53,205 nt of DNA from Clostridia bacterium (GTDB lineage: Bacteria > Bacillota > Clostridia > Lachnospirales > JAOARL01): NCBI GenBank assembly GCA_025210555.1, contig JAOARL010000030.1, positions 1 to 53,205 of the forward strand. The letters run 5' to 3'. This document shows positions 1-43,243 of the stretch, piece after piece. The position numbers were made by a program, and so were the translations under genes. Positions within the stretch are counted from its first letter, which is position 1; every line of letters begins with the position of its first letter. The notes beneath the pieces are model-generated. The model did no database searches. It was not told the origin of the DNA and saw only the letters and a list, made by a program, of their open reading frames with translations.

Positions 1-56
1 GTGCAGTGCAATGAATACAACATATAACACTCTATATTCGATTGCTTATAGTTAAC

Positions 57-86
57 AAAAAAAGATTGACCTAAGCCAATCTTTTT
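57..86 (-). terminator. Rho-independent terminator after the micro-ORF cassette
   Basis: On the minus strand AAAAAGATTG pairs with CAATCTTTTT around a small loop, followed by a T run. The A run on the other side means it could act in both directions. It lies about 70 bases after the 69-codon ORF. I see no gene in bases 1-157 apart from this hairpin. Confidence 0.75.
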
Positions 87-157
87 AAAATAGTACTTCA
101 TTATATTAAAAAATCAAATCCCAATAATTCTTTACACTAACCCCTTAGGCTCTTAAC

Positions 158-367
158 TTATAAAGTTATTTCATTATCCTTTTTTGCTTCAAATTTAGGT
201 GTTTCTATACTAGCACCACTATCACATATACAACCATTTTTTTGAATATCATTCTTTTTAACTCCAACTGTATTTCCATCAAACATGTGCTTATATCCAA
301 AAGGATCTCCACCACGCATTGCATTTCCTTTACTCTCAACTTTTATTCCATATTTATCCATTGCCAT
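158..367 (-). CDS. Small orphan protein, 69 aa
   Basis: I do not recognise this family. The start is supported by GGAGG seven bases upstream of ATG, and the SD begins only two bases after the stop of the preceding 23-codon ORF, so the two are probably translationally coupled. The protein has no signal peptide or membrane segment. It is Gly- and Lys-rich in its first two thirds (GGDPFGYKHMFDG at about 19-31) and has a single C-x-C pair near residue 46 (NGCICDSGAS), then a charged tail. A modified-peptide precursor, a small regulator and a metal-binding protein are all possible; nothing in the sequence decides. It is the last gene before the terminator. Confidence 0.6.
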   Translation of the reverse strand: MAMDKYGIKVESKGNAMRGGDPFGYKHMFDGNTVGVKKNDIQKNGCICDSGASIETPKFEAKKDNEITL

Positions 368-381
368 TTCAATTCCTCCAT

Positions 382-453
382 TTATTTTATTTTTTTATTT
401 AGGCACCTAAATGCCCACTCCCTTGCTTCTTCATCTTCACTTTTCCTTCGCAT
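382..453 (-). CDS. Micro-ORF, 23 codons, strongly charged peptide
   Basis: The ORF starts at ATG 453 with an AGGAGGTG Shine-Dalgarno seven bases upstream and ends at TAA 382-384. The peptide starts MRRKSEDEEAREW and ends CLNKKIK. It is highly charged, with one Cys and one Trp. It lies between a hairpin/T-tract upstream and the SD of the 69-aa gene downstream, so it is either a genuine small protein or a coupling leader. No homology is claimed. Confidence 0.5.
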   Translation of the reverse strand: MRRKSEDEEAREWAFRCLNKKIK

Positions 454-468
454 TTAAATGCACCTCCT

Positions 469-504
469 AAAAAAATAAAAAAGACCCATAATTTAATATG
501 AGCC
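469..504 (-). terminator. Hairpin and T-tract between leader ORF and micro-ORFs (possible attenuator)
   Basis: On the minus strand GGCTCATA pairs with TATGGGTC (two G-T wobbles) around a six-base loop and is followed by TTTTTTATTTTTTT. It lies 22 bases after the stop codon of the 24-codon leader ORF and directly before the SD of the 23-codon ORF. Position and form fit either a plain terminator or an attenuator. A second small stem (TATGCT/AGCATA) covers the leader stop codon. Confidence 0.7.
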
Positions 505-525
505 TTACGTTTCAATTATGCTATC

Positions 526-600
526 TTAATTAAGCATACTCAGAAAGGCTCTAACTATACGTCTTCTTCTATTTAATTCTCTATTTGCAACTAAATTCAT
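526..600 (-). CDS. Leader-type micro-ORF, 24 codons, Arg-rich
   Basis: ATG at 600 follows AGGAGG with a short spacer, about 25 bases after a consensus promoter. The stop TAA is at 526-528. The peptide contains NRRRRIVRAF, a run of four arginines, and ends SMLN. The arrangement of promoter, strong SD, short basic ORF and terminator hairpin is that of leader peptides that control resistance or stress genes by ribosome stalling. Established work on macrolide-sensing leaders names +X+ (Arg/Lys-X-Arg/Lys) stalling motifs, which this peptide contains. No resistance gene follows, so the regulatory reading is inference. Confidence 0.55.
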   Translation of the reverse strand: MNLVANRELNRRRRIVRAFLSMLN

Positions 601-627
601 AACGTGCCTCCTAAGTAATTTTTAACA

Positions 628-656
628 AGTATACTCTTATTTATATTACTTGTCAA
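628..656 (-). promoter_or_regulatory. Sigma-A promoter for the micro-ORF cassette
   Basis: TTGACA (651-656) and TATACT (628-633) are separated by exactly 17 bases on the minus strand, close to full consensus. The -35 box lies within the last codons of recN, and no terminator separates recN from it, so read-through from recN is also likely. Confidence 0.85.
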
Positions 657-2325
657 TTTTTTTGTATTCTTTAGCAATATCTTTCATTTCTTTAGCAGCT
701 ATAAGTGTATTTTCAGTTATACTAACACCACCTAAGAGTCTTGCTAATTCTTCATTAACTTCACTATCATCTAATTTCAAAACATTTGTCTTTCTATCTT
801 CTTTTATAATTTTATAATGATTATCTGCCATAGCTGAAATCTGAGGTAGATGAGTAACACTTATTATTTGCGAGTTATTAGCTATACTAATAATTTTTTC
901 AGCAACTTTTTGTGCTGTTCTACCACTTATCCCACTGTCAATTTCATCAAATATTAATGTTTTAGCTTCTTCTTTAAAACTACCAACAGTTTTAAGTACT
1001 AACATCAATCTTGAAAGCTCTCCTCCTGAAGCAATTTTACTAAGACTATCTACATTTCTTCCATTTGTACCTATTAAAAATTCTACTTTATCTTTTCCAC
1101 TTGCAAAAAATTCATCTGCTGTTTCAACTCTAATATTAAATTTAGCACCTTCCATTTCAAGTTCATTCAAACTATTCTCAATGCTTAATTCTAAATCACG
1201 CGAAATTTCTTTTCTCTTTTTAGAAATTTTAAAAGCTATATCATTTAATATTGTTTCCTTATCTTTAACTATCCTATTTAACTTTTCTATTTCTTCATTT
1301 ATATTAATTAAAACATTTAATCTTTCCTCACTTTTTTCTAAATACATTAAAATTTCTTCTACTGAATTACCATATTTTCTTTTAAGATCATTAATTAAAA
1401 ACAATCTTTTTTCAAGATCATGATATTTTTCTTCATCAAAATACATTTTATCTATATATGCTCTTAACTCTAATGACGTATCTTCAAGTATTATAGATAC
1501 ATTTTCAATAGTATTATATATTGATTTAATTTCTTCATCTACCGTTGATATGTTTTCTAAATAATTCCTAGCATTTATAATATTATCAACTGCTGATAAT
1601 TCCTCTTCACCCTTATATATATTATTATATGCATCCATAACAGCTTGATTAACCTTCTCATAATTGCTCATTTTTTTGTATTCATCATAAACTGTTTCTT
1701 CTTCAGACTCTTTTAAATCAGCTACCTTTATTTCCTTTACTTCGTGAGATAGTCTGTCTATTTCACGTTCCTTTTTCTCATTATCAAGCATTAAAAGTTC
1801 CAATTTGTTTCTTGTTTCTTTATATTCAACAAGTTCCTTTTTGTACTCCATAATATTTTGTTTATGTATATCATCACAAAAGAAATCCAAATAATTAATA
1901 TGTCCACTTTTATCAAATAACTTTTGATGTTCATGCTGACCATGTATATCAATTAAATCTTTTGTTATTTCTTTAACTATACTTAAAGTAGATGGCCTTC
2001 CATTTATTTTAACTGAAGTTTTACCATCTTTTGTTATTTTTCTAGATATTATTATGTTACCTTCTGACAACTCAATATCATTTACCTTGGCAACTTTTTT
2101 TGTTGTTTCATTTATGTCTACAAATAATAAATCAACAAATGTATCTTTTTCTATATCTTTACATAGATTACTCTTAACTCTTTCTCCTAATGCAAAATTT
2201 ATAGCACCTAAAATAATAGATTTACCTGCACCCGTTTCTCCGGTCATAACATTAAACCCTTTTTCAAAATCAATTGTAAGTTCATCTACTAATATGAAAT
2301 TTTTAATATAAACACTACTTAACAT
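646..2325 (-). CDS. recN: DNA repair protein RecN
   Basis: SMC-like ABC ATPase of double-strand-break repair; it gathers and protects broken DNA ends in the cytoplasm. The N-terminal half-ATPase has Walker A GETGAGKS at about residues 29-36. A long coiled coil fills about 150-370. The C-terminal half has the ABC signature ASGGELSRLML (about 432), Walker B LIFDEIDSGISG (about 457) and the switch His in SVTHLPQISAMADNH. At 559 aa it has normal length. Unlike the usual Firmicute arrangement there is no argR next to it. It appears monocistronic upstream, with an extended -10 promoter after the preceding operon's terminator, but it has no terminator of its own and runs into the micro-ORF cassette. 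Confidence 0.97.
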   Translation of the reverse strand: MLSSVYIKNFILVDELTIDFEKGFNVMTGETGAGKSIILGAINFALGERVKSNLCKDIEKDTFVDLLFVDINETTKKVAKVNDIELSEGNIIISRKITKDGKTSVKINGRPSTLSIVKEITKDLIDIHGQHEHQKLFDKSGHINYLDFFCDDIHKQNIMEYKKELVEYKETRNKLELLMLDNEKKEREIDRLSHEVKEIKVADLKESEEETVYDEYKKMSNYEKVNQAVMDAYNNIYKGEEELSAVDNIINARNYLENISTVDEEIKSIYNTIENVSIILEDTSLELRAYIDKMYFDEEKYHDLEKRLFLINDLKRKYGNSVEEILMYLEKSEERLNVLININEEIEKLNRIVKDKETILNDIAFKISKKRKEISRDLELSIENSLNELEMEGAKFNIRVETADEFFASGKDKVEFLIGTNGRNVDSLSKIASGGELSRLMLVLKTVGSFKEEAKTLIFDEIDSGISGRTAQKVAEKIISIANNSQIISVTHLPQISAMADNHYKIIKEDRKTNVLKLDDSEVNEELARLLGGVSITENTLIAAKEMKDIAKEYKKIDK

Positions 2326-2355
2326 ATAATCACCATCTATAATTTAATTATCTTC

Positions 2356-2364
2356 ATTATATCA
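2356..2364 (-). promoter_or_regulatory. Extended -10 promoter of recN
   Basis: TGATATAAT on the minus strand, 31 bases before the recN start, is an extended -10 element (TG-N-TATAAT). No good -35 is visible because the upstream terminator U-tract occupies that position. Confidence 0.5.
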
Positions 2365-2373
2365 AAAAACAAA

Positions 2374-2400
2374 AAAAGTTGTATATATAATACAACTTTT
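2374..2400 (-). terminator. Terminator of the padR operon
   Basis: AAAAGTTGTAT pairs with ATACAACTTTT and is followed by seven Ts on the minus strand. The stem begins in the stop codon of the DUF4097-like gene. Confidence 0.85.
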
Positions 2401-2926
2401 ATTTTATATCTATTTTATCAAAATAAATATTTCCATTTCCTACAGTAACATCTAGCTTAAATGTATTACCTTTTGGTATTGACACATATATTTTACCATT
2501 TGCATCTTTGTTTTCAGCTCCTGAAACGATTTTAGATCTATAATCCCAATCATCATCAATTTTCAAAACATATTCTTTCTTGTCTTTACTTTCTTTCACT
2601 TCATATTTAACTATAGGTTCTTTAATATCTTCTACATGTTTTACATATACATCATCATAAATTGATACCACTTTTATTGTTTGGTGTTCTTTAAGATTAA
2701 GTATAGTTTCCTCGTTTCCATTTAAAGTTCTGGTATTATATGAACTTACGTATGTTAAATATTCCATTTTTTCTTCCATTTGCTCTCCAGCTTTTTCAAG
2801 GCTCATTTCAATTGTTTTCCAATCCCCTTTAAACTCATCTCTGAATCCCACACTACTTAGACTTATTATAACTGCTGCAAGTGAAGTTATAAATATTATT
2901 CCAAATACAATTAATACCTTTTTCAT
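2399..2926 (-). CDS. DUF4097-like membrane-anchored protein
   Basis: 175-aa protein with one N-terminal membrane segment (VLIVFGIIFITSLAAVIISL, residues 4-23) and a mostly beta C-terminal part rich in short alternating hydrophobic strands (IYVSIPKGNTFKLDVTVGNGN, about 148-168). This resembles the end of the DUF4097 (adhesin-like, right-handed beta) family that commonly follows a PadR/DUF1700 pair. It is shorter than typical DUF4097 proteins, so it may be a reduced version. Its ATG overlaps the stop of the DUF1700 gene (TAATG). The usual role proposed for such cassettes is envelope-stress sensing; function here is inferred from context. Confidence 0.6.
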   Translation of the reverse strand: MKKVLIVFGIIFITSLAAVIISLSSVGFRDEFKGDWKTIEMSLEKAGEQMEEKMEYLTYVSSYNTRTLNGNEETILNLKEHQTIKVVSIYDDVYVKHVEDIKEPIVKYEVKESKDKKEYVLKIDDDWDYRSKIVSGAENKDANGKIYVSIPKGNTFKLDVTVGNGNIYFDKIDIK

Positions 2927-3510
2927 TATTTATCAATCCCTCTCTTAACTAAGTTAACATTATATCTTAAATATTTTAGAAGTACTTTATATAAATATTT
3001 TGTGAATATTATTCCTAAAATAAATACTATTACACCAAGTGAAAATACCATTAATCCTGTAAAGAATATTAAATAAACACTAACTCCTACTAACACTTGC
3101 TCAACTACTAATGATACAAATGGATATGCCATTGCAGATATCATTATTCCAATACCTGTAGCTGCAATGCCTCCTGCAACTGCAAAACCACCAACAAGAA
3201 TTGATATTATTATTGCAACTGGCCCCATTACTAAAAATAAGTTCAATAAACCCAAACTTATAACTGAAGCAATTGCTTTTAGAATTGCTACAACACTCAT
3301 TTTTTCTTCTGCTTTACTAACCATCAGTGAAGCATTATATTGCATAGCAATATCTTCTGGGCTACCAAGCTCTTCAATTATTTCTGAGTCACTCTTTCCA
3401 TTTTCATTTCCTATATCAAAATGCTCCTTATAGTCATATATTATTTCACCTTTTTCTGGAACTCCTTCAAGAAGCTCTTCTAATTTTTTCAAAAAATCTT
3501 TCTTATTCAT
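2926..3510 (-). CDS. DUF1700 (HAAS domain) membrane protein
   Basis: The N-terminal part, about 75 residues ([18 protein letters not shown], then a conserved [10 protein letters not shown] stretch), matches the HAAS/DUF1700 helical domain. Three to four hydrophobic helices follow. I place the start at ATG 3510 because GGGAGG lies just upstream inside the padR tail; a TTG at 3528 in the same frame would place the SD inside the coding sequence. The gene overlaps padR by eight bases. HAAS proteins are usually coupled to PadR-type repressors and probably sense or transmit an envelope signal. Confidence 0.85.
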
Positions 3511-27136: not shown

Positions 27137-28828
27137 TTAATATTGAGTCATTGACTCATTTTTAACTATTAGTTCAGAATGAAGCTTATTTATATTTCCA
27201 AGTTTCTTGTGCATCTTTTCTAAGAAAATCTTAAGTATCTTAGCTTCAAGGTCTAAATCATCTTCAAACATTGCTTTTAATGTATCTTTATTTATCTTTG
27301 TAACAACAACATCTGTATCTGCTATTGCGTTAACATTATATAAGTCATTAACAAAAGTTGTTTCTCCTATTACTTCATTATCTCTAATTGTACCAATTAA
27401 AATCTCATCTTTGTCTTCTGTATATTTAATTATTCTTATTTCACCTTTTAAAACAAAATACACACTATTGTTTTTGTTACCTTCTCTAAATATAATATCA
27501 TTTTCCTTAAAGTTGTATATATTCATATTTGTAACAATTTCTTTAAGTTGTAAATCGTTTAATATATCAAAGCCTTCTATATTTTTAATAATATCATACT
27601 TATCTAACTCTTCGCTATCAATTTCTGATTTACTTATCATATTTATATTTTTTCTAATATCTTCAATCTTTTCATTTGCAACTTTTATAAGTGATACCCA
27701 CGCTTTTTGAAATTCTACATACTCATCAAAAACATCATAATCTGCTTTGGCATCGTATTTACTCATATATATATTTTCAAGACACGCTTTAACACCTTCG
27801 TTGTCACCATTTGTCATATAGTCAAATGCTAACATCATGTTAGTTTTAAATATTCTTTCTTCAAGATCATCCTTTAAGAATTCTCCAGGATATGGATCAA
27901 ATTCTGTTGCTAAAACTTTTCGCATATTTGGAAGATCTTTTTGCGAGTCAATTTTAGCTTTCTCATATAAAAATCTATACATATCTTCTCTAAATCTTTT
28001 CCATATTGGATGATTTTTCTTAGGTGGTAAATGCTTAATTGATAACCTATTATCTAAAAAGAAGTCATATCCAAACATCTTTGAATTTAATAAATAGTCA
28101 ATATCTTCTCCTCTTGTTACTCTTGGATCAAAAGGAACTGTTCTAAATAAATTTTTATGAATTATCATAGCTCCTCCAAAAGCAAATGGAGTCTTTTTTA
28201 TAACTGGATCTTTACCAATTATCTCATCAAAGGCTTTTCCCTTAGCCCCAAATCTATCCCAGTATGTCATCCATGGCAAAATCTCTACATCATCATAATA
28301 CTTACCATATTTATTTAAATAATAACCAGCAACTCCATATATAGTCTCACCATATATTCTTGTTCCCATATGTTCTTTTGCCATATCTATAAATTTAGGA
28401 TTTTCAAAAACTTCATCATCATCTATTAACATTGCTACATCTGATCCCATTATGTGAGATACAAATAAACACATATTTCTAACATTAGAATATCCTTTCA
28501 TTGATAAGCTATCAAAAGCTATATCTAAATTTTTTATTGCATTTAAATGCGCATCTGTGAAAAGAATAACTTCTATGTTAAGATTTGCTTTATTTATTAT
28601 ATTTCTAACCTTTTCTTCCGCTTCGTTAAATATTTCATTGGTAGTAGTACAAAGAAGTATTGCTAATTTATACTTTTTATTTTCTAGATTTTTCATACTC
28701 TCTAGAGTTCTAAGTAATGTGCCCTCTTCATCTACAGGAGTTGGGTGATCATATATAACATCACCTTCTTTATGTCCTTCATCTCTAGTTCTTGACCAAT
28801 AAGTAGGTATTACAACTGTCGTTTTCAT
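27137..28828 (-). CDS. GT-A glycosyltransferase fused to a cyclic-nucleotide-binding-like domain
   Basis: 563 aa. Residues 1-300 are a GT-A fold: TTVVIPTYW start, metal-binding Asp triad LIDDDEVF (about 138), the acceptor region PFAFGGAMIIHKNLF and RGEDIDYLLN (about 245). A helical spacer follows (about 300-420). The last 125 residues are a CRP-like cNMP-binding beta barrel (FKENDIIFREGNKNNSVYFV; GEIRIIKYTEDKD; NEVIGETTFVND). The phosphate cassette keeps GE but the usual Arg (R-x-A) appears as Tyr, so ligand binding is uncertain. ATG 28828 is chosen over a GTG two codons upstream because AGGAG would lie too close to the GTG. No membrane segment. It lies between a GT4 gene and ndk in one operon. 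Confidence 0.85.
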   Translation of the reverse strand: MKTTVVIPTYWSRTRDEGHKEGDVIYDHPTPVDEEGTLLRTLESMKNLENKKYKLAILLCTTTNEIFNEAEEKVRNIINKANLNIEVILFTDAHLNAIKNLDIAFDSLSMKGYSNVRNMCLFVSHIMGSDVAMLIDDDEVFENPKFIDMAKEHMGTRIYGETIYGVAGYYLNKYGKYYDDVEILPWMTYWDRFGAKGKAFDEIIGKDPVIKKTPFAFGGAMIIHKNLFRTVPFDPRVTRGEDIDYLLNSKMFGYDFFLDNRLSIKHLPPKKNHPIWKRFREDMYRFLYEKAKIDSQKDLPNMRKVLATEFDPYPGEFLKDDLEERIFKTNMMLAFDYMTNGDNEGVKACLENIYMSKYDAKADYDVFDEYVEFQKAWVSLIKVANEKIEDIRKNINMISKSEIDSEELDKYDIIKNIEGFDILNDLQLKEIVTNMNIYNFKENDIIFREGNKNNSVYFVLKGEIRIIKYTEDKDEILIGTIRDNEVIGETTFVNDLYNVNAIADTDVVVTKINKDTLKAMFEDDLDLEAKILKIFLEKMHKKLGNINKLHSELIVKNESMTQY

Positions 28829-28838
28829 ATACACACTC

Positions 28839-41491: not shown

Positions 41492-41538
41492 AAAAAGAGC
41501 TTATTTCAATAATTTTAACCAAATTGAAATAACCTCTT
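41492..41538 (-). terminator. Strong terminator after the CHC2 gene pair
   Basis: About 15 paired bases (AGAGGTTATTTCAAT against ATTGAAATAAGCTCT) followed by TTTTC on the minus strand. It overlaps the stop codon of the second zinc-finger gene and separates the pair from coaE. Confidence 0.8.
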
Positions 41539-42328
41539 ACTCATATAATTGTATTTCATTTTCAATTTTCTTCTTTTCATATTCAAAGGCAACAATATCT
41601 TCAACTGAATTAATGTCATATATTGATAACCCAGTATGGTTTAGATTGTTAAAATCAAGATGATTCTTTATATCTTCATGTGTAGTTGTCATTTTATCCT
41701 TTAATTCCTCATAAGAACTATACTCATAGTCACTAAGAGTATTATAAAAAATCTCATCCAGATTGTTTTCTTCAATGCCTATCTCATATTTTTTTTCTTG
41801 TTTTCTTTTTGTTGCATTCCACTGAAATAAAGAATCTCTCCTTCTAGGCTCATTTGGCAATTTGTTTTCATACTCCTCATAAGTATGTGATCCTATTTCA
41901 TGCTCCAAATATCCTAGGTGTAGTGCTCTTGCTTCAAGGTATGCTAAAGTAGCTCCAAACTTTAAATTTTCTACCCTCTCAATAAATTTAAAGACACTTC
42001 CTGCTGCCCCACATCCAAAGCAGTGATATAATTGTTCCTTTCTGCTTATAGTCAAAGACGGTGTTTTTTCATTATGAAAAGTACATATCATATATATATT
42101 TTGTGATTCTTTGCTATGTAAGGTTGTTCCATATTCCGAAATAACCTCAACTATGTCATTTGCTTTCCTTATACTTTCAACTTCCTCATCTGTATAAAAC
42201 TTTTTAAATATCCTATATCCTTTATTTATACCTTCTTGAAAGAATTCCAATTCTTTCTTTGAAAACTTTCCTTCTATATCTAACCAGCTTTCTTTTCTGT
42301 ATTTTTCTCTGTTTTTATACTTCTTCAT
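41537..42328 (-). CDS. DnaG-type CHC2 zinc-finger protein without catalytic domain (second copy)
   Basis: 263 aa. A unique N-terminal 50 residues leads into YTDEEVESIRKANDIVEVIS, the helical start of DnaG primase, and the zinc ribbon CTFHNEKTPSLTISRKEQ...CFGCG (C-x2-H, C-x2-C) at about 83-107. The following FKFIERVENLKFGATLAYLE is also DnaG-like. The primase TOPRIM and helicase-binding domains are absent; instead there is an acidic unrecognised tail (about 150-263). SD GGAGGTG. It is a diverged paralogue of the gene 45 bases upstream. Confidence 0.8.
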   Translation of the reverse strand: MKKYKNREKYRKESWLDIEGKFSKKELEFFQEGINKGYRIFKKFYTDEEVESIRKANDIVEVISEYGTTLHSKESQNIYMICTFHNEKTPSLTISRKEQLYHCFGCGAAGSVFKFIERVENLKFGATLAYLEARALHLGYLEHEIGSHTYEEYENKLPNEPRRRDSLFQWNATKRKQEKKYEIGIEENNLDEIFYNTLSDYEYSSYEELKDKMTTTHEDIKNHLDFNNLNHTGLSIYDINSVEDIVAFEYEKKKIENEIQLYE

Positions 42329-42373: not shown

Positions 42374-43213
42374 TTATCTTTCAAAATTATTCTTTGCTTT
42401 TTCAAACTCAACAAGATCTTCTGTATCATAAAAATCATATTGAGTATCTCCTGAATTGTTAATATCAATTGACTCAGAAAACTCCCACGTTTCTAAGTGT
42501 TCCTGTATATCAGATTCTGCTGTTCTCATCTTTGGTTTAATATAATCAAAAAAATTAACTAAATGTATATTTCTAGTCTGAGTATAAAAAAGCTCTGACA
42601 TTTTACCTTCATCCATAGCCCTTTCATAATCATTTTCTTCTGTCTTGATTTTTTCTAATTTAGGTTTTAGATTTTCAATTTTTCTACCTATGGCTAACTT
42701 TTGAAAGTTCGAATCCCATCCCACTGCATTAAATGGCAATCTCTCTTTATGTTCTTTATAGCTATATACCCCAAGTTCTTTTTCAAGATAACCAAGATGA
42801 AGAACTCTAGTTTCTAAAAGAGTTACTGCTCTTCTAAAATTTAAATTTTCAATCCTCTTAATAAAATCAAACACATTACCAACTGCGCCACACCCAAGGC
42901 AATTATATAATTCCCTATCAGAAGCTTTAAAAAGACTCATCGAAGGCGTTTTTTCACTATGAAATGTGCATATAGCGTGTACACCTTCTCCTGTTCTACT
43001 TTTATATACTTCTTGATATTCCGCTATTACATCAACTAATCTATTTGATTTCATAATTTCGTCTATTTCTTCATCCGTATAATACTTATTAAATATCTTA
43101 TAATCATTTTTTATACCTTTCATAAAAAGGCTCAACTCTTTTTTTGTAAACTTACCAGGTTTCAGGTACCAAGGAGTCTTTTTAACCCTTAATCTATTAG
43201 AATACTTACCCAC
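42374..43213 (-). CDS. DnaG-type CHC2 zinc-finger protein without catalytic domain (first copy)
   Basis: 279 aa starting at GTG 43213 with AGGAGG eight bases upstream; an earlier in-frame GTG falls inside the SD. Layout equals the second copy: W-x4-GKF-T/S-KKEL N-terminal motif, YTDEEIDEIMKSNRLVDVIAEY, the zinc ribbon CTFHSEKTPSMSL...CLGCG (about 83-110), NVFDFIKRIENLNFRRAV, then a different acidic tail containing a DLVEFE helix. No TOPRIM. Both copies share one consensus promoter upstream of this gene. Function unknown; nucleic-acid binding is the most likely role. Confidence 0.8.
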   Translation of the reverse strand: MGKYSNRLRVKKTPWYLKPGKFTKKELSLFMKGIKNDYKIFNKYYTDEEIDEIMKSNRLVDVIAEYQEVYKSRTGEGVHAICTFHSEKTPSMSLFKASDRELYNCLGCGAVGNVFDFIKRIENLNFRRAVTLLETRVLHLGYLEKELGVYSYKEHKERLPFNAVGWDSNFQKLAIGRKIENLKPKLEKIKTEENDYERAMDEGKMSELFYTQTRNIHLVNFFDYIKPKMRTAESDIQEHLETWEFSESIDINNSGDTQYDFYDTEDLVEFEKAKNNFER

Positions 43214-43243
43214 TATAAACACCTCCTTTTAATAATTACTATT

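Follow-up and report, generated by a model that had tools for sequence, protein, structure and literature searches.

A probable trp-type transcription attenuator ahead of two small orphan ORFs behind recN in a Clostridia-like lineage

Enterobacterial transcription attenuators of the trp/his type are built from a leader peptide gene and three RNA structures, a protector (1:2), an antiterminator (2:3) and a terminator (3:4). Short leader ORFs have also been described in other settings. The leader of yxjB (tlrB) in Bacillus subtilis ends in a C-terminal arrest motif, and the stalled ribosome itself prevents termination ahead of an rRNA methylase gene (PMC6851288). Its RYR motif acts as a macrolide arrest motif (PMC6851288). 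The toiL upstream ORF (uORF) of the Escherichia coli topAI-yjhQ operon senses several ribosome-targeting drugs, including by arrest at the start codon (PMC12121999), and a DUF1127 leader of Sinorhizobium meliloti attenuates, in a uORF-dependent way, the transcription of a small gene whose function is not known (PMC12218461). The locus presented here shares elements with all of these, and we consider it probable that it is a trp-type, ribosome-mediated transcription attenuator, which would hold two small downstream ORFs (ORF2 and ORF3) off unless a ribosome is delayed early on the leader.

The window, i.e., the whole stretch of DNA analysed, is one entire contig of 53,205 bases from a genome of 1.56 Mb that is 99.57% complete, with a G+C content of 27-30%. 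The host appears to represent an isolated Clostridia-like lineage, since the best named match to its RecN, found in Fervidicella metallireducens by scanning genome contigs with RecN, shares only 43% identity. The closest kin among the genomes drawn as relatives belong to the same order at best, and the gene behind recN in Fervidicella is not that of the window.

Two other regions of the minus strand were noted in passing. Positions 41537-42328 and 42374-43222 encode two neighbouring proteins (263 and 282 aa). In both, a DnaG-type CHC2 zinc finger (PF01807) is the sole Pfam match, which makes them a tandem primase zinc-finger pair lacking a primase domain. The protein encoded at positions 27137-28834 (565 aa) carries a cyclic-nucleotide-binding domain (PF00027) at its C terminus and has a long N-terminal part without a Pfam match that is glycosyltransferase-like in look; its gene adjoins a glycosyltransferase-like gene.

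The proposed switch region follows the DNA-repair gene recN on the minus strand, close to the contig end, and consists of the following parts:

646-2325, minus: recN (TIGR00634)
656-628, minus: promoter TTGACA-17-TATACT, 11/12 matches, overlapping the 3' end of recN
617-537, minus: protector 1:2, SD region 617-606 paired with codons A18-S21 (549-537) and 605-601 paired with 563-559
612-607, minus: Shine-Dalgarno sequence (SD) of ORF1, AGGAGG, 6 nt before the ATG
600-526, minus: ORF1, putative 24-codon leader peptide MNLVANRELNRRRRIVRAFLSMLN, recognised by SD and ATG statistics
569-477, minus: antiterminator 2:3, GAGCCUU 551-545 paired with AAGGCUC 506-500
538-517, minus: stem around the ORF1 stop codon, inner hairpin of the antiterminator
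506-475, minus: terminator 3:4, a 10-bp hairpin (506-481) and U-tract, -10.9 kcal/mol
468-463, minus: SD of ORF2, AGGAGG, immediately 3' of the U-tract
464-401, minus: hairpin hiding the ORF2 start, arms 464-450 and 414-401
453-382, minus: ORF2, 23 codons, MRRKSEDEEAREWAFRCLNKKIK, at an SD-ATG site
379-375, minus: SD of ORF3, GGAGG, beginning 3 nt after the ORF2 stop
367-158, minus: ORF3, 69 codons, hydrophilic orphan with a CxC motif and gene-like codon usage
59-86, minus: closing terminator, arms 59-68 and 77-86, -11.6 kcal/mol

Transcription would presumably start near 621. The consensus promoter proposed in an earlier, sequence-only reading of this DNA is present, but its score alone is within chance, as the window contains eight promoter-type sites with at least 11 of 12 matches against 5.9 expected; the window is A+T-rich, and sites with 11/12 matches are not rare there. 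Terminator-like sites are more conspicuous, with two observed in positions 1-3000 against 0.3 expected. The hairpin 506-481 is the first terminator behind recN, none being found before 506, and the closing terminator is symmetrical and could serve the plus strand too. There is no room for a separate promoter between the hairpin and ORF2, and the SD of ORF2 stands directly behind the U-tract; ORF2 and ORF3 would therefore be transcribed through the hairpin.

The ORFs were assessed by a census of strong SD-ATG sites ([A/G]GGAGG-N4-9-ATG) on both strands of the window (106 kb of strand). Seventeen sites were found: 14 at the starts of long ORFs, one within a gene, and those of ORF1 and ORF2, the only ones located outside long genes over this length of strand. 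At this rate about one false site would turn up per 100 kb of strand, so that a pair of AGGAGG-ATG sites less than 150 bp apart is far beyond chance. The 24-codon ORF with a full SD described earlier can thus be retained, and ORF1 is presumably translated. The codon usage score of real genes is 0.32 ± 0.13. ORF3, at 0.43 bits per codon, reaches a value seen in 0 of 2000 shuffles and counts as a real gene on this measure, while ORF1 (0.12) is intermediate and ORF2 (-0.13) is not gene-like. The three rarest codons of ORF1, CGT14 (2%), GCC18 (3.6%) and CTG20 (1.7%), all fall within the stretch engaged in RNA pairing.

Folding yielded three mutually exclusive leader structures, the protector, the antiterminator and the terminator, so the attenuator layout noticed from the sequence holds; the stem over the ORF1 stop, the hairpin and the U-tract named with it are all real. 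Beyond its core, the antiterminator continues where the Arg-codon stretch 569-554 is paired to 492-477, i.e., to the terminator 3' arm and U-tract; here GAAGAAGAC, which encodes the Arg core, pairs with GUCUUUUUU. The SD of ORF1 is open until RNA polymerase passes approximately 540 and closed after that, the unpaired probability being 0.84 with RNA to 560 and 0.00 with RNA to 535. A short SD-bearing leader ORF behind a promoter, and an antiterminator and terminator that exclude each other and are joined by a protector, are features of trp-type attenuators.

In the ribosome-position model, a ribosome was placed at each codon by deleting all RNA 5' of its leading edge, and the remainder was folded at equilibrium, an approach that ignores pausing and kinetics. 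With RNA to 481, the terminator probability was 0.95 when no ribosome was present. It fell to 0.02 when codons 1-7 were occupied, was 0.31 for codon 8 and lay at 0.93-0.96 for every position between codon 9 and the stop. In the model, the position of the ribosome thus decides the outcome, as in a trp-type attenuator. Varying the leading edge from +12 to +17 moved the threshold by about one codon. With the transcript ending at 484, the switch point was less sharp and lay at codons 10-14, and with the whole U-tract out, untranslated RNA favoured the antiterminator (terminator probability 0.17).

The chance of such behaviour was estimated by substituting other sequences for the 115 nt that precede the terminator and seeking the same three-state logic, defined as a terminator probability of at most 0.1 for stalls at the start and at codon 6 and at least 0.9 without a ribosome. 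The real leader gives 0.022, 0.021 and 0.946, respectively. The logic appeared in two of 6000 dinucleotide shuffles, 0/6000 natural 115-mers from the window, 12/6000 synonymous recodings and 10/6000 codon permutations; these controls were devised after the structure had been seen, so the rates are rough and optimistic. The most telling control is the synonymous recoding, in which the peptide was left unchanged and other codons of this genome were used. Because such recodings nearly always lose the switch, the codon choice of ORF1 appears to be tuned at the RNA level. The folding energy of the whole leader is mildly unusual (z = -1.87, 9/200 shuffles). Its energy gain gave no separation from shuffles, owing to the strength of the 1:2 structure, and the three-state test was used instead. 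Regulation by translation of the leader, as suggested from the sequence, is well supported in silico, both by the ribosome-position model and by the rarity of the logic in four kinds of control.

These results suggest the following course of events. Without translation, the leader SD would pair with codons 18-21 and the terminator would form. During smooth translation, the ribosome, once past codon 8, would cover the antiterminator strand, and the terminator would again form. A ribosome arrested anywhere from the start codon to about codon 7 would allow the antiterminator to form, with read-through into ORF2 and ORF3. The likeliest signals would be uncharged tRNA-Arg, with R7 in the A site, or ribosome stress causing arrest at initiation or in early elongation.

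The Arg-rich core of ORF1 does not fit the role first suggested for it. The sequence-only reading took it for a +X+ stall motif that switches the downstream genes on, but in the model a ribosome on R11-R17 leaves the terminator free to form (P ~0.95). A stall in the Arg core would therefore lead to termination, the AGA codons being the antiterminator strand. The core is most parsimoniously regarded as a by-product of RNA pairing, given that UCUUUUUU in the terminator and U-tract is a pairing partner for (AGA)n. For freeing the antiterminator in the trp manner, the model favours R7 as a sensor codon and disfavours R11-R14. R7, the first Arg codon of the leader, is the only one at a useful position and marks the end of the stretch where a stall gives read-through; codon 6 would occupy the P site of a ribosome that awaits Arg-tRNA at R7. 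In the model, arrest at the start codon is equally able to give read-through.

The genome content bears on the first of these signals. No match to argG or argH was found in the genome of the window (99.57% complete), while both models matched in 14 of 14 control genomes, and an arginine deiminase is encoded (C36:88932-90134). With argG and argH missing and the deiminase present, the host is predicted to be an arginine auxotroph that relies on external arginine and catabolises it. As context, though not as proof, this makes arginine shortage a plausible signal. The alternative would be early or start-codon arrest by drugs, for which toiL offers an analogy (PMC12121999).

Two further small ORFs with strong SDs had been placed in the segment 382-656; both are present, although ORF3 (367-158) lies outside it. 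As claimed earlier, no resistance gene follows, since neither ORF2 nor ORF3 matched a Pfam, NCBIfam, PHROGs or PADLOC family. The ORF3 protein has the sequence MAMDKYGIKVESKGNAMRGGDPFGYKHMFDGNTVGVKKNDIQKNGCICDSGASIETPKFEAKKDNEITL; its AlphaFold2 model, made without an alignment, is uninformative (pLDDT 49). At ORF2, a 14-bp hairpin has its second arm (414-401) within the ORF's own codons (z = -2.35, 3/200 shuffles), and the ORF2 AUG has an unpaired probability of 0.00 once this arm has been transcribed; the start of ORF3 is mostly open. The four Arg codons of ORF2 are all non-AGA (CGA and three AGG), AGA making up 83% of Arg codons. Because its start is hidden and its Arg codons avoid AGA, ORF2 may be a second leader and not a product.

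Searches for relatives returned the window itself only, bar weak matches, for ORF1 (398 genomes from the phylum, 295 from the order), for ORF2 (295 genomes of the order) and for the DNA in phages. Bar weak matches, ORF3 likewise had no relative in 295 genomes of the order, 391 of the class, viral contigs or plasmids, i.e., in any collection searched, and one further search gave no significant match. Comparison of the leader with Rfam covariance models gave no match. The DNA matches examined (L002 and L003) arose by chance, inside unrelated genes or at their ends, and the weak ORF3 matches L021 and L023 overlie or sit inside other genes. The one ORF1 look-alike, L026 (NRELSRRRRVTRGF), is also a coincidence, being a THF riboswitch (RF01831) read in one frame. 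This riboswitch (G217, 1485-1580, minus) has a frame 59% identical to the Arg core of ORF1 and illustrates how a structured RNA can generate a false peptide homologue.

The region can also be explained without a switch. Hairpin 506-481 might simply end recN, with ORF1 incidental or independent and ORF2 and ORF3 expressed by leaky read-through. Many intrinsic terminators leak, recN has no terminator other than this hairpin before 506, and the whole-leader fold stands out only mildly. We nevertheless regard this explanation as unlikely, for a promoter, SD and ORF precede the hairpin, no promoter fits between it and ORF2, and the three-state logic is rare in the controls, synonymous recodings included. 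Reading the promoter-to-terminator transcript as a non-coding leader or small RNA, stable, of ~145 nt, ending at 475, active in its own right and with ORF1 untranslated, agrees with its predicted size, which is that of an sRNA. This is very improbable given the perfect SD, the ideal spacing and the ATG of ORF1, a class of site otherwise seen at real genes in the window, and given that no Rfam family was matched.

Macrolide-like drugs could stall ribosomes at +X+ motifs of the Arg core and so switch the downstream genes on. R/K-X-R/K is a macrolide arrest motif, ORF1 contains RRRR, and R11 is borderline at the earlier transcript end 484, where the switch lies at codons 10-14. This is very improbable too, as ribosomes on R11-R17 are predicted to give the wrong sign, unless the stalled ribosome stops RNA polymerase, or prevents terminator action, by some other route, and the downstream region is free of resistance genes. 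The trp-type attenuator released by early delay accordingly stays our preferred reading, and termination at the hairpin in the cell, the signal and the role of ORF3 are what we infer from it. A more specific version is possible, and we offer it tentatively: an attenuator responding to arginine starvation or early arrest in a host that depends on arginine and degrades it. Its Arg codons would serve at the same time as antiterminator strand, pairing with the U-tract of the terminator itself, and it would control a lineage-specific 69-residue stress protein, with a second, start-hiding hairpin at ORF2.

If the attenuator works as proposed, an isolated lineage contributes a compact ribosome-operated switch that is fully legible, and switches of this kind also guard tiny orphan genes overlooked by annotation pipelines. 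The stall signal of the leader would then tell when the cell needs the small protein. The case also advises caution, as Arg-rich leader peptides are not necessarily arrest motifs when RNA pairing explains the codons.

Among the described systems, orf34-speF of Salmonella (PMC6386406) and rbfL of Staphylococcus aureus (PMC13009471) resemble this leader in that a ribosome is slowed at Arg codons under arginine shortage. They act via Rho, RNase G or RBS blocking and on other downstream genes, and no sequence relation of either to this leader was found. As in the DUF1127 leader (PMC12218461), the RBS of the uORF pairs with the uORF's own codons; read-through there comes from impaired initiation or masked C-rich codons and not from a stalled ribosome, and sequence, phylum and architecture differ. 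With toiL (PMC12121999) the locus shares a uORF ahead of non-resistance genes, toiL using SD occlusion and Rho where an intrinsic terminator and an antiterminator are found here. The yxjB (tlrB) leader (PMC6851288) is similar in its short leader ORF, its attenuator combined with a hairpin at the start of the next gene, and its +X+ residues, whereas a stall in the Arg core is here predicted to terminate.

The logic of the trp/his type is reproduced by the model: termination without translation, read-through upon an early stall and termination upon full translation. Unlike in that type, the Arg run lies inside the antiterminator strand, past the stretch where a stall would be useful, the sensor would be the single R7, and the genes controlled are small orphan ORFs and no biosynthetic operon. 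The proposed switch is of a known sort.
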